DNA of 64,000 nucleotides from Sphingomonas aliaeris (GTDB lineage Bacteria; Pseudomonadota; Alphaproteobacteria; Sphingomonadales; Sphingomonadaceae), in the NCBI RefSeq assembly GCF_016743815.1, contig NZ_CP061035.1, positions 2,606,501 to 2,670,500 on the forward strand. The letters are read 5' to 3'. Below the pieces are notes generated by a model, which was given only the letters and a program-made list of their open reading frames with translations, ran no database searches and was not told the origin of the DNA. Below are positions 13,701 to 52,191 of the stretch, one piece after another. How positions within the stretch are numbered: position 1 is the first letter of the stretch; every line of letters starts with the position of its first letter. Both the position numbers and the translations under genes were made by a program.

Positions 13701-13919
13701 TTGGGCATCGTGAAGATCGACGACGAACTGCATGCCGACGTGCGCCGGGCGAGCGGCGCGATGTGCCGCTCGATCAATGCGCAGGCCGAATACTGGATCA
13801 GGATCGGCATGCTGGCGGAGGCGAATCCGGCGCTGTCGTTCGCCCAGATCATGCGGATGCAGCTTGCCGCCGCCAACGTCCGCCTGCCGGAACTCGGCCC
13901 CGAACTCGCAGCCGCCTGA
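13701..13919 (+). CDS. ParD-like antitoxin family protein, no toxin partner
   Basis: Protein of 72 residues resembling the ParD_like family (ribbon-helix-helix type antitoxin): MGIVKIDDELHADVRRASG, then RSINAQAEYWIRIGMLAE. Start is TTG at 13701, matching the family beginning MGIVKI; GTG at 13710 is the alternative. No ParE/RelE-type gene is adjacent: map starts one base after the stop. It is therefore an orphan, or regulates map with which it is apparently co-transcribed. Confidence 0.75.
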   Translation: MGIVKIDDELHADVRRASGAMCRSINAQAEYWIRIGMLAEANPALSFAQIMRMQLAAANVRLPELGPELAAA

Positions 13920-13920
13920 C

Positions 13921-14698
13921 ATGGTCAAGACGCCCGACGAACTGGCGCTGATGCGCGTATCGGGCAAACTGCTCGCGTCCGTGTTCGAGATGCTGGATCG
14001 GCAGCAACTGGCGGGCCTGTCCACGTTGGAGATCAACGATCTGGTCGACCGGTTCATCACCGTCGATCTCGCCGCGCGCCCGGCAAGCAAGGGGCAGTAT
14101 GATTACGGCTTCGTGCTGAACTGTTCGATCAACAATGTCGTCTGCCACGGCGTGCCCGACGCGAACCGGATCGTCCGCGACGGCGACATCATCAACCTGG
14201 ATATCACGCTGGAAAAGAACGGCTTCATCGCCGATTCGAGCAAGACCTATCTGGTCGGCGAGGCGACGCCCGCCGCGCGGCGCCCTCGTCCGCGTGGCGC
14301 AGGAGGCGATGTGGAAGGGCATCGGCCAGGTCCGGGCGGGCGCGCATCTGGGCGATATCGGCTTCGCGATCGACAAGCATGCGAAACGCCACGGCTATTC
14401 GGTGGTGCGCGAATATTGCGGCCACGGCATCGGCCGCGAGATGCACGAGGAACCGGCGGTGCTGAATTTCGGGCGTGCCGGATCCGGCCTGAAATTACGC
14501 GAAGGCATGGTCTTCACGATCGAACCGATGGTCAATCAGGGCACGCGCCGCGTCTCGACCGAGGCGGATGGCTGGACCGTGGTGACCGACGACGGCAAGC
14601 TTTCCGCGCAGTTCGAACATACCGTCGCGGTGACTCGGCACGGTGTCGAGGTGCTGACGCTCCGCAGTGACGAGAAGCACGCTTTGCCTCGGGCCTGA
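13921..14698 (+). pseudogene. map: Type I methionine aminopeptidase, frameshifted
   Basis: N-terminal Met excision enzyme, a binuclear metallopeptidase. The first part (MVKTPDELALMRVSGKL...SSKTYLVGEATPAAR) reads in one frame and the rest (ALVRVAQEAMWKGIG...) in the next. The join is at 14278-14282, where CGGCGCC contains one base too many: dropping it restores 258 residues. All metal ligands are intact across both halves: Asp in NLDITLEKNGFIADSS (two), His in CGHGIGREMHEEP, Glu in FTIEPM and Glu in QFEHTVAVT. Since Map is normally essential and the rest is undamaged, a sequencing error is more likely than real inactivation. Starts one base after the ParD-like gene. Confidence 0.85.
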
Positions 14699-46807: not shown

Positions 46808-46973
46808 CCCCTCCCCTTTAGGAGTGCCGGGTGAATAGCCCCCGGGCTATTCAGGTCAGGCTGGGAGCCTGACCGACCCGGCACTGGGTTGGGGTGGGGC
46901 CGTTCCGCAGATGCCGACGCAGCAGAATGAGGCAAGCCCCCCACCCCCGGCCCCTCCCCTTAAGGGGAGGGGG
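46808..46973. repeat. Three-way-junction palindromic element between murC and murB
   Basis: Nested inverted repeats fill most of the murC-murB spacer. Outer CCCCTCCCC (46808-46816) can pair with GGGGAGGGG (46965-46973). A 10-bp stem AGTGCCGGGT (46823-46832)/ACCCGGCACT (46876-46885) encloses two perfect 9-bp hairpins: GAATAGCCC/GGGCTATTC (46833-46852) and GGTCAGGCT/AGCCTGACC (46854-46874). CCCCTCCCCTTAAGGGGAGG at 46952-46971 forms another palindrome. Confidence 0.85.
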
Positions 46974-49588: not shown

Positions 49589-50812
49589 TCATTCGCCGCT
49601 CCACCGCGCGATATAGGGGGAGCGCGATACGAACGGGTTCCGCCGCGTGAATGCAAGCAGCAATCCCATCCCGATCGACAGCGCGATCAACGAAGATCCG
49701 CCGTAAGAAATGAACGGCAACGTCATGCCCTTGCTCGGCGCCATGCCCGTATTTACCGCCATGCTGATCAGCGCCTGTGCCCCGAATTGGGTCGCCAGCC
49801 CCGCCGCCGCGTACAGACGGAACTCGTCCTGCTCGTCCAGCAGCTTCACGAACACGCGCACCACCACCGCCAGGAACAGGATGGCGATCACCGCGCACGC
49901 GATCAGCCCGAACTCCTCGCCGATCACCGAATAGATGTAATCGGTATGGCCCTCCGGTAGGCGGAACTTCATCGTCCCGCCGCCCGGCCCGGTCCCGCGC
50001 CATCCGCCCGCGGTGATCGCATTGTGCGCCGCATTGGTCTGGAAATTGTCCGACGCCCCCTCGCCCACGCCCGGGAACAGGAACGCATCGATGCGCACCC
50101 GCGCCGTGTCGTAGAACAGATACGCCGCGACCAGCCCGATCGGCACGCACCCGATCAGCGCCGCCATGATCTTCACCGGCGTGCCCGATATCATCAGCAA
50201 CGCGATCCACACCGAACAGAACACCACCGTCTGGCCGAAATCGGGTTGCAGCATCAGCAGCATCGCGACGAACGCGGTCAAGGCACCGGTGATGACGACG
50301 ACGGGCAGTTCACTGTCCTGCGCGCGCAAGGACAACAGCCACGCGGTCGTGACAATGAAACACGGTTTCAGGAATTCGGACGGCTGCAACAGCGACAGGC
50401 CGAAATCCAGCCAGCGCGTCGCACCGTTGCGCGTCACGCCGATGAACGGCACCGCGATCAGCATCGCCAGGCAGACCGCCGTTCCGATCAACGCCATCCG
50501 CCGCGCCATCGGCACCGGCAACATCGACGTCACGAACAGGACGGGCAGCGACACGCCGACCCAGCCCAGCTGCCACCACAGATAATACAAAGCAGGGATA
50601 TGATGCTTGTCGTCCGAATAACGCTGCGCCGCCGATGGGCTCGCCGCGCCGACCGCGACCAGCCCGACCGCGATCAGCAACATCGTCAGCAACAGCAGAA
50701 CGCGGTCGATATCCCAGAACCACATGCCGAGCGCGGATCGGTCGCCCCGCCCACCGCGATTCTTCATCCGGCTGATCAGGCCGGCTTTCTGGGGCGCGCG
50801 AACATCGGTCAT
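49589..50812 (-). CDS. ftsW: Peptidoglycan polymerase FtsW (SEDS family)
   Basis: SEDS-family glycosyltransferase of septal peptidoglycan, 407 residues, about ten membrane helices. [55 protein letters not shown] and [31 protein letters not shown] at 50812 is the start, overlapping the murD stop (ATGA). The apparent fusion of murD and ftsW in one frame is caused by an indel in murD. Confidence 0.95.
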
Positions 50813-52191
50813 GCCAAGGCCTCCACCGCCTGCCGGAACTGGTCGCCGCGATCCTCGAAATCGCGAAACTGGTCGAACGACGCGCAGGCCGGCGACAGCA
50901 GCACCGTCTCGCCCGGCTGCGCCTGCGCCCGCGGCGCTGGTGACCGCCGCGGACAGCGTGCCGCTCTGCTCGACCGGCATATGATCCTTGAGGATGTCGG
51001 CGAACTTCGCCCCCGAAGACCCGATCGTATAGGCGCGCACGACATGCCCGAAACTCGGCGCGCAGGCGTCGAGATCGTCGCTCTTCGATTGCCCGCCAAG
51101 GATCCAGTGGACCCGGTCGAACGCCGCCAGCGCCGGCGCGACGGCTTCCGGATTGGTCGCCTTGCTGTCGTTGACGAACGCGACATTGTTCCTGGTCGCG
51201 ACCAGTTCCATCCGGTGCGGCAAACCGGTGAAGGTGCGCAACGCCGCTGCGATCACGTCCTCCGCAACGCCCAGCCGACGCGCCACCGCAACCGCCGCCT
51301 GCACGTTCGACCGGTTATGCGGTCCCTGCAAGTTCGGCCACTCGCTTTGATCGCCGACCGCCACGTCGCCGATGATCTCGACCGTCGGGCTTTCCCAATC
51401 GTCCAGAATGGCGAACTCCGCCAGCGCGGCGCCATCCAGCACGGCAAGCATCTCGGCCGACTGCATCGCGATCAGCCGCGCCTTCGACGCCGCATAATCC
51501 GCCAGCCCGTCATACCGGTCGAGATGATCCGGCGTCACGTTCAGCAACACCGCGACATCGCAATCCAACGTCTGCGTCAGGTCGATCTGATAGCTCGACA
51601 GTTCCAGCACATAGACGCCACCCTCCGGCAGCGGCTCCTGCTCCAGGATCGGCAACCCGATATTCCCGCCCAGCCGCGACGGCACCTCCGCGGTGCGCAG
51701 GATATGGTGGATCAACGACACCGTCGTCGACTTACCGTTCGTCCCCGTGACGCCGACCACCTTGTGCGCAGGCAATCCGGTCTGCGCCTGCGCGAACAGT
51801 TCGATATCCCCAATGATCGGCACCCCCGCCGCCCGAGCCTTCGCCGCCACCGGATGCCGGTTCAACGGCACCCCCGGCGACACGACCAGCGCGTGGAAGC
51901 CAGCGAGGTCGATCACTTCCGGATCACCAACTTCTAAAGCCCTCTCCCCGCTTGCGGGGAGAGGGTTGGTAGAGGGGCAGTGTCGAGCGAAGGGACTTCC
52001 GACTGCCCCTCTCCCCAACCCTCTCCCCGCTTGCGGGGAGAGGGAGCTAAAGCATCCCGCCGTCCCGCATCCGAATCCCACGCCACTACGCTCGCCCCGC
52101 CGGCCACCAGCGCACGCACAGTCGCCGCACCGGACCGCGCCAGCCCCAGCACCGCAAAGCGCTTGCCTGCCCAGGCATCGGAAGAAATCAC
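50809..52191 (-). pseudogene. murD: UDP-N-acetylmuramoylalanine-D-glutamate ligase, two disruptions
   Basis: ATP-dependent D-Glu-adding ligase. GTG start at 52191 overlaps the mraY stop. First 49 or so residues ([25 protein letters not shown]...DSDAGRRDAL) are in one frame, then a 113-bp palindromic insert (flanking 7-bp duplication CTAAAGC at 51934-51940 and 52047-52053) throws the frame off. The rest reads ALEVGDPEVIDLAGFHALVVSPGVPLNRHP, VGVTGTNGKSTT, DHLDRYDG in the next frame. A second switch is at the CCC of 50928-50930: one base fewer restores [21 protein letters not shown]...EALA. Without both lesions MurD is 422 residues and complete. One extra base within the insert would leave an in-frame 38-residue insertion. 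Confidence 0.88.
51934..52053. repeat. Palindromic element inserted in murD
   Basis: Arms CCTCTCCCCGCTTGCGGGGA (start 51941) and CCCTCTCCCCGCTTGCGGGG (start about 52018) with CAGTGTCGAGCGAAGGGACT between. Flanked by direct repeats CTAAAGC (51934-51940, 52047-52053). Removing one copy plus the element restores an uninterrupted murD codon order. Confidence 0.85.

Follow-up and report, generated by a model that had tools for sequence, protein, structure and literature searches.

The murD gene of Sphingomonas aliaeris lies on the minus strand of the window, by which we mean the whole stretch of 64,000 nt that was analysed (contig NZ_CP061035.1, positions 2,606,501 to 2,670,500), and the part encoding the N-terminal domain of MurD is interrupted by a palindromic repeat that belongs to the group called class A below. 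The host gene matches the curated murD model in pieces, its body scoring 291 bits against a cut-off of 212. The features of the locus, in window coordinates and with the strand given for the coding parts, are the following.

51940..52046: class A palindromic repeat inside murD, with two hairpins and a partly self-complementary middle
51940..51965: hairpin unit 1, 26 bp, perfect 12-bp arms and a 2-nt loop
52019..52044: hairpin unit 2, a 26-bp exact copy of unit 1
51934..51940: left CTAAAGC, a 7-mer that a further copy of the repeat in this genome also has at its left end
52047..52053: right CTAAAGC, within the murD codons that precede the repeat
52047..52191, minus strand: murD 5' part, with the GTG start at 52191 (placed by eye), overlapping the mraY stop
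50940..51939, minus strand: murD body, open, in a frame unlike that of the 5' part; 3' limit approximate
50809..50940, minus strand: murD C-terminal part beyond a second frame break; 5' limit approximate

The two copies of CTAAAGC reported in the first-pass annotation are present in the letters on both sides of the palindrome; the interval between them is 106 bp, and the element together with one 7-mer amounts to 113 bp. When these 113 bp are omitted, GRRDAL is fused to EVGDPEV in a single frame, so that the earlier reconstruction of the pre-insertion reading frame is borne out. The distance from LGLARSG to SPG is 269 nt in this allele, and subtraction of 113 leaves 156 nt instead of the 165 nt found in 29 of 53 insert-free loci (some genomes double-counted); the allele is thus not a clean addition to the usual empty form, as had been supposed. 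The murD element has an 84% match over 107 nt at another place in the same genome, where class A units, 11 in number, are spread over 8 places and class C units number 14. A lone class B hairpin (CCCCTCCCCTTAAGGGGAGGGG) is located at 46951-46972 of the window, directly behind murC.

As assembled, the gene is broken twice. The length of 113 bp is not divisible by three, and the 5' part reads across the repeat and runs into a stop codon just beyond it; near the C-terminus there is a second break (about 50,915-50,960), overlooked in the first-pass annotation, after which the C-terminus is back in the frame of the 5' part. A second intact murD was not found in this genome, where one place only scored above the cut-off of the murD model. 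Elsewhere in the window, an M24 peptidase gene (13918-14698, plus strand), flagged by a coding-potential map and then read by its domain positions, extends over two frames and is split near 14,270, with Peptidase_M24 positions 2-107 on one side and 109-207 on the other; a ParD-like antitoxin gene is found just ahead of it at 13701-13916. Conserved genes of the window are therefore broken in frame at three or more points, and one break coincides with a strong hairpin; this pattern indicates consensus indels, while a genome completeness score of 99.88% argues against very many of them. In the approximately 22 kb of the window covered by frames of two relatives, no split gene other than murD was judged to be present (16 of 131 frames matched the window in more than one frame; the non-murD ones were judged neighbour-spanning or antisense, one of them having been checked). 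A candidate frameshift at 60.8 kb was rejected since it consists of two adjacent genes.

The frame loss at the repeat and the second murD break are most likely consensus indel errors. It is improbable that the frameshifts in murD of this strain are genuine and that the function is provided by separate pieces, by translational frameshifting or through another ligase: both breaks do stand in the assembly of a nearly complete genome, but the gene is single-copy and expected to be essential, two breaks in murD are accompanied by one in the M24 peptidase gene, and the nearest MurD body among the best 120 of 7984 proteins listed (P0002, 94% identical) has an unbroken C-terminus. No same-species murD was found among these 120 proteins. 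One of the proteins, P0012, is a mosaic: its N-terminal part is near-identical to MurD of this strain, but it has a compound insert of class B, and the middle of its body contains a dissimilar stretch.

The repeat had been treated as an isolated, one-off event, and its occupied counterparts in many relatives had been missed. In a search of 61 genomes, a murD query made from the window was split into two pieces in many members of the genus. An even sample of 201 Sphingomonas genomes was then used, among which 200 matched, 89 with two or more matches; there was no split at the site in 112 of the 201. The inserts were read in 84 of the 89 split genomes (G078, G081, G108, G138 and G179 were left out, and single-match genomes were read in part), and classes were assigned by eye from the loop sequences. 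Class A (CCCTCTCCCC..GGGGAGAGGG) accounts for 32 of the 84, class C (CCTCCCCGG..CCGGGGAGG) for 29, class B (CCCCTCCCC..GGGGAGGGG) for 15 and class E, which comprises two other repeats, for 2; the remainder are five longer loops without a palindrome and one insert-free allele. A repeat of a palindromic class is thus present at the same point of the MurD N-terminal domain in at least 78 of 201 genomes of the genus, this strain included. In other genera of the family the query match was split in 7 of 58 cases, with repeat-like inserts kept in frame in six, and the seventh (L341) is garbled at the hairpin by long homopolymers and looks misassembled. The 47 read genomes that are insert-free mostly have the plain 165-nt spacing, and outside the genus the spacing is 162-171 nt.

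Several irregular loci were seen in this survey. The loops of L030 (G030), L042 (G026) and L185 (G121) are about 16 residues longer and have no palindrome (..QLK.DR..); each is either a decayed repeat or another kind of insert. Among draft assemblies, the contigs of G078, G138 and G179 start at the murD hairpin, and L196 and L211 hold N there. In L053 (G022), and also in L055, the murD start and the repeat occur twice in tandem, the upstream copy being out of frame with the body. G084 has two murD-region copies (L228 and L239) with identical MurD bodies near both ends of one contig, perhaps a redundant assembly.

The inserts preserve the reading frame. Among 82 alleles of classes A, B, C and E (four of them from outside the sample), 77 are open and a multiple of three in length; the five exceptions are this strain, two alleles with N in the hairpin (G227 and G190) and two with shortened inserts (G180 and G104). 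Chance would keep the frame in one third of the cases, which gives a binomial probability of 7e-31 when relatedness is ignored. The in-frame MurD insertion proposed earlier for this strain is supported by its relatives, while its own assembly is out of frame; the 77 alleles suggest that its true murD sequence is in frame as well.

Position and shape are similarly constrained. In alleles with both arms recognised (66 of the 80 A, B and C alleles, used for the arm-position and flank counts), the first arm begins 32 nt after a conserved Trp codon in all 26 measurable class C alleles, 36 nt after it in 22 of 27 class A alleles, and 34-46 nt after it in 13 class B alleles. Of the 83 loops of at least 205 nt, 68 show strong self-complementarity (z of 5 or more) and the other 15 are weaker; of 77 shorter loops only 5 reach that level, three of these five being shortened inserts and one a hairpin scar. 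In the MurD N-terminal domain the insert lies in the loop after beta strand 2 and a short helix, and in a structure prediction for one relative it was modelled as a disordered loop with most of the remaining MurD fold confident. It is very unlikely that the hairpin is kept for a function, such as adjusting the mraY-murD-ftsW messenger or mediating a protein contact. Such a role would fit a site frequently occupied by hairpins of differing sequence and similar shape, but the 112 sampled genomes with no split there speak against it, as do insert sequences that differ freely and the existence of collapsed and scarred forms.

The repeats are dispersed in these genomes, with 0-64 class A hairpins and 7-45 class C hairpins per genome in a set of 12 that includes two genomes with an unoccupied murD, G003 and G014, and two with a single match, G151 and G161. 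Under uniform scatter of the counted repeats, a given 10-bp interval is expected to be occupied in about 0.03 of 201 genomes. Other genes are entered too. When 42 class A places (25 in G021, 10 in G033 and 7 in G000) were checked for spanning ORFs and ten such ORFs were scanned, four had Pfam domains and six had none. Three genes of G021 carry in-frame repeats inside Pfam domains: a relative of the DNA polymerase III alpha subunit, which we take to be dnaE2-like, thiD and an RNase R-like gene. In the prmC-like gene of G021 (named by eye) the repeat is near the start, and in an acyl-CoA dehydrogenase gene of G000 it is ahead of the domains. The G021 loci with repeats in other genes are L274, L277, L283 and L278.

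Insertion at random, with murD offering the most tolerant loop and selection clearing the other sites, could account for the in-frame repeats in other conserved genes of G021 and would be eased by inserts that are mostly open in two or three gene-strand frames (63 of 77). We nevertheless regard it as improbable, the occupation of the murD site being more than a thousandfold above uniform scatter by a rough estimate that ignores selection elsewhere. The neighbouring mraY, the rest of murD and the start of ftsW are also free of class palindromes in nearly all of 137 loci. In these loci (73 with loop copies), such palindromes in the roughly 3 kb around the site are confined to the loop, the exceptions being G022 with its tandem murD start (three matches), G225 (two) and S. 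prati (one).

The occupant of the site changes among close relatives. On a MurD tree built without the insert (136 rows, made by a quick method, with low support in places and with gain and loss not distinguishable), the six labels require at least 61 changes, compared with a mean of 75 for shuffled labels; the second copy in G084 (G084b) was mislabelled "long" in this count, which may add one change. The starred branches alone force 13 changes for A, 9 for B, 14 for C and 13 for alleles with no insert. Class C clusters on the tree no more strongly than shuffled labels (254 of 500 shuffles were as low), and class B hardly clusters (62 of 500). Neighbours such as G034/G110 and G117/G190 differ in class, their flanks being similar to within a few codons. 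In addition, G105 carries a class C repeat whose outer hairpin survives as a scar in the empty allele of G090, and a second repeat seems to lie within the first in G020, G152, G225 and P0012, as judged by eye. Classes A, B and C have a CTCCCC..GGGGAG core in common, again by eye.

Part of this turnover is exchange of murD alleles, not new insertion, since same-class alleles are more alike near the site than downstream of it. In a clade comprising 14 rows, class was shared with the closest relative in 8 rows far upstream, in 10 and 11 near the site and in 3 far downstream (the upstream slices of G018 are misaligned, with values of 0.22 and 0.49 that lower the A-A means, and G227 and G180 were left out). 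Genus-wide, exchange explains little, because trees of 124 rows give 31 class changes among inserted rows when built upstream of the site, 32 when built near it and 32 when built downstream. These results bear on the proposal that one old insertion in a sphingomonad ancestor was inherited vertically, with classes replaced through gene conversion by dispersed repeats and through allele exchange, and with empty alleles arising by deletion, so that no site preference is needed. The very exact position, the core common to the classes, the hairpin scar in G090, the greater likeness of same-class alleles near the site in one clade and the availability of class A and C donors in most of the 12 genomes are all in keeping with such a history. 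We consider it unlikely, given the 47 insert-free genomes, mostly with the plain spacing that is seen outside the genus too, and the small contribution of exchange on the three trees.

The first-pass annotation had interpreted the flanking CTAAAGC as a 7-bp target duplication, and this could not be established. Across 66 murD alleles, the longest repeat common to both flanks has a mean length of 3.42 nt, compared with 3.41 nt for shuffled pairings (93 of 200 shuffles reach the observed value); the 7-nt repeat of this strain is the largest of the 66, the next being 6. In a further copy of the repeat in this genome (L006) the left end reads CTAAAGCCC and the right side lacks CTAAAGC, two more (L007 and L008) carry AAAGCCC, and by eye the class A ends of this genome read CCCTCTCC..GGGAG, often with AAAG ahead. 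The left CTAAAGC is probably part of the repeat's own end. The candidate of a REP driven by a RAYT was rejected as well: the genome has no Y1 (RAYT-type) transposase by a search for PF01797, which matched in one of ten genomes (G033). A structured RNA family was likewise rejected, the 53 Rfam matches being nearly all to microRNA models, all below gathering scores, and taken as chance hairpins.

We propose, with a probability of roughly 0.6, that a loop of the MurD N-terminal domain is a recurrent landing and turnover site of several palindromic classes in the Sphingomonadaceae, and that the class A copy of this strain is real and its frame losses most likely consensus indel errors. Observed directly are a position that varies by no more than a few codons, repeats of several classes, a preserved frame, close relatives that differ and at least one scarred empty allele. 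Short, gene-less, dispersed palindromic repeats would land recurrently at the loop, and those that arrive in frame would persist, since the added residues would make up a disordered loop at the surface. Pairing of the arms, perhaps mediated by the common CTCCCC..GGGGAG core, could later yield deletions, nested inserts and class switches. More tentatively, and with somewhat less than even confidence, we suggest that Sphingomonadaceae MurD offers a docking position which the repeats prefer, reached by some route other than the Y1/RAYT transposases for which genomes were searched, perhaps during hairpin replication or repair. If so, an essential enzyme would be a revolving door for selfish DNA: repeats would arrive, nest within one another, switch class and leave with a scar, in nearly every case in frame.

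The movement of palindromic repeats, and their entry into protein genes without lethal effect on the host, are still poorly understood. A single position in an essential and structurally well-known enzyme provides dozens of natural replicates, with different repeats in the same codon range and with empty and scarred controls, and makes insertion preference, tolerance and removal directly testable. Caution is also called for, as murD assemblies and annotations in the Sphingomonadaceae can fail at the hairpin.

The rhizobial intergenic mosaic elements (RIME) are about 100 bp long, have a palindrome at each end and are intergenic. In 104 plasmid records, nearly all rhizobial, there were partial matches to the class A element, two of them covering 80% or more of the query, and the name RIME was in no annotation among the 30 matches listed. 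With MITEs the repeats share a short, gene-less and dispersed nature and an inverted-repeat structure; they differ from them in having no excess of target site duplication in 66 alleles, that of this strain alone showing 7 nt. Palindromes in sphingomonad MurD were not reported in the open-licence literature searched, mostly at the level of titles and listings, nor was a family-wide, multi-class hotspot at a single site of an essential gene found there. The Rickettsia palindromic elements, described as palindromes of about 100-150 bp in frame inside unrelated protein genes (PMC10969869), are alike in being palindromic repeats within protein genes, in frame here in 77 of 82 alleles, and the earlier comparison of the murD repeat with them is supported in kind. 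The difference is that here repeats of several classes are found at a single site in one essential gene, in species across a family; the two systems are likened by description. The GTAG and CGTC REPs are dispersed hairpins, sometimes dimers, that occur in frame in proteins, DnaE2 included, and two Xanthomonas recB genes have a REP at about the same site, according to the parts of that report available to us (PMC3733652). They too decorate proteins in frame as dispersed hairpins; a GTAG or CGTC end tag is absent from classes A-C by eye, murD is not named in the main text of that report, and a comparable scale or multi-class turnover at one site is not described in the parts available. What is new relative to known intragenic palindromes is that one site within an essential gene takes several classes, on this scale and with turnover that can be seen.
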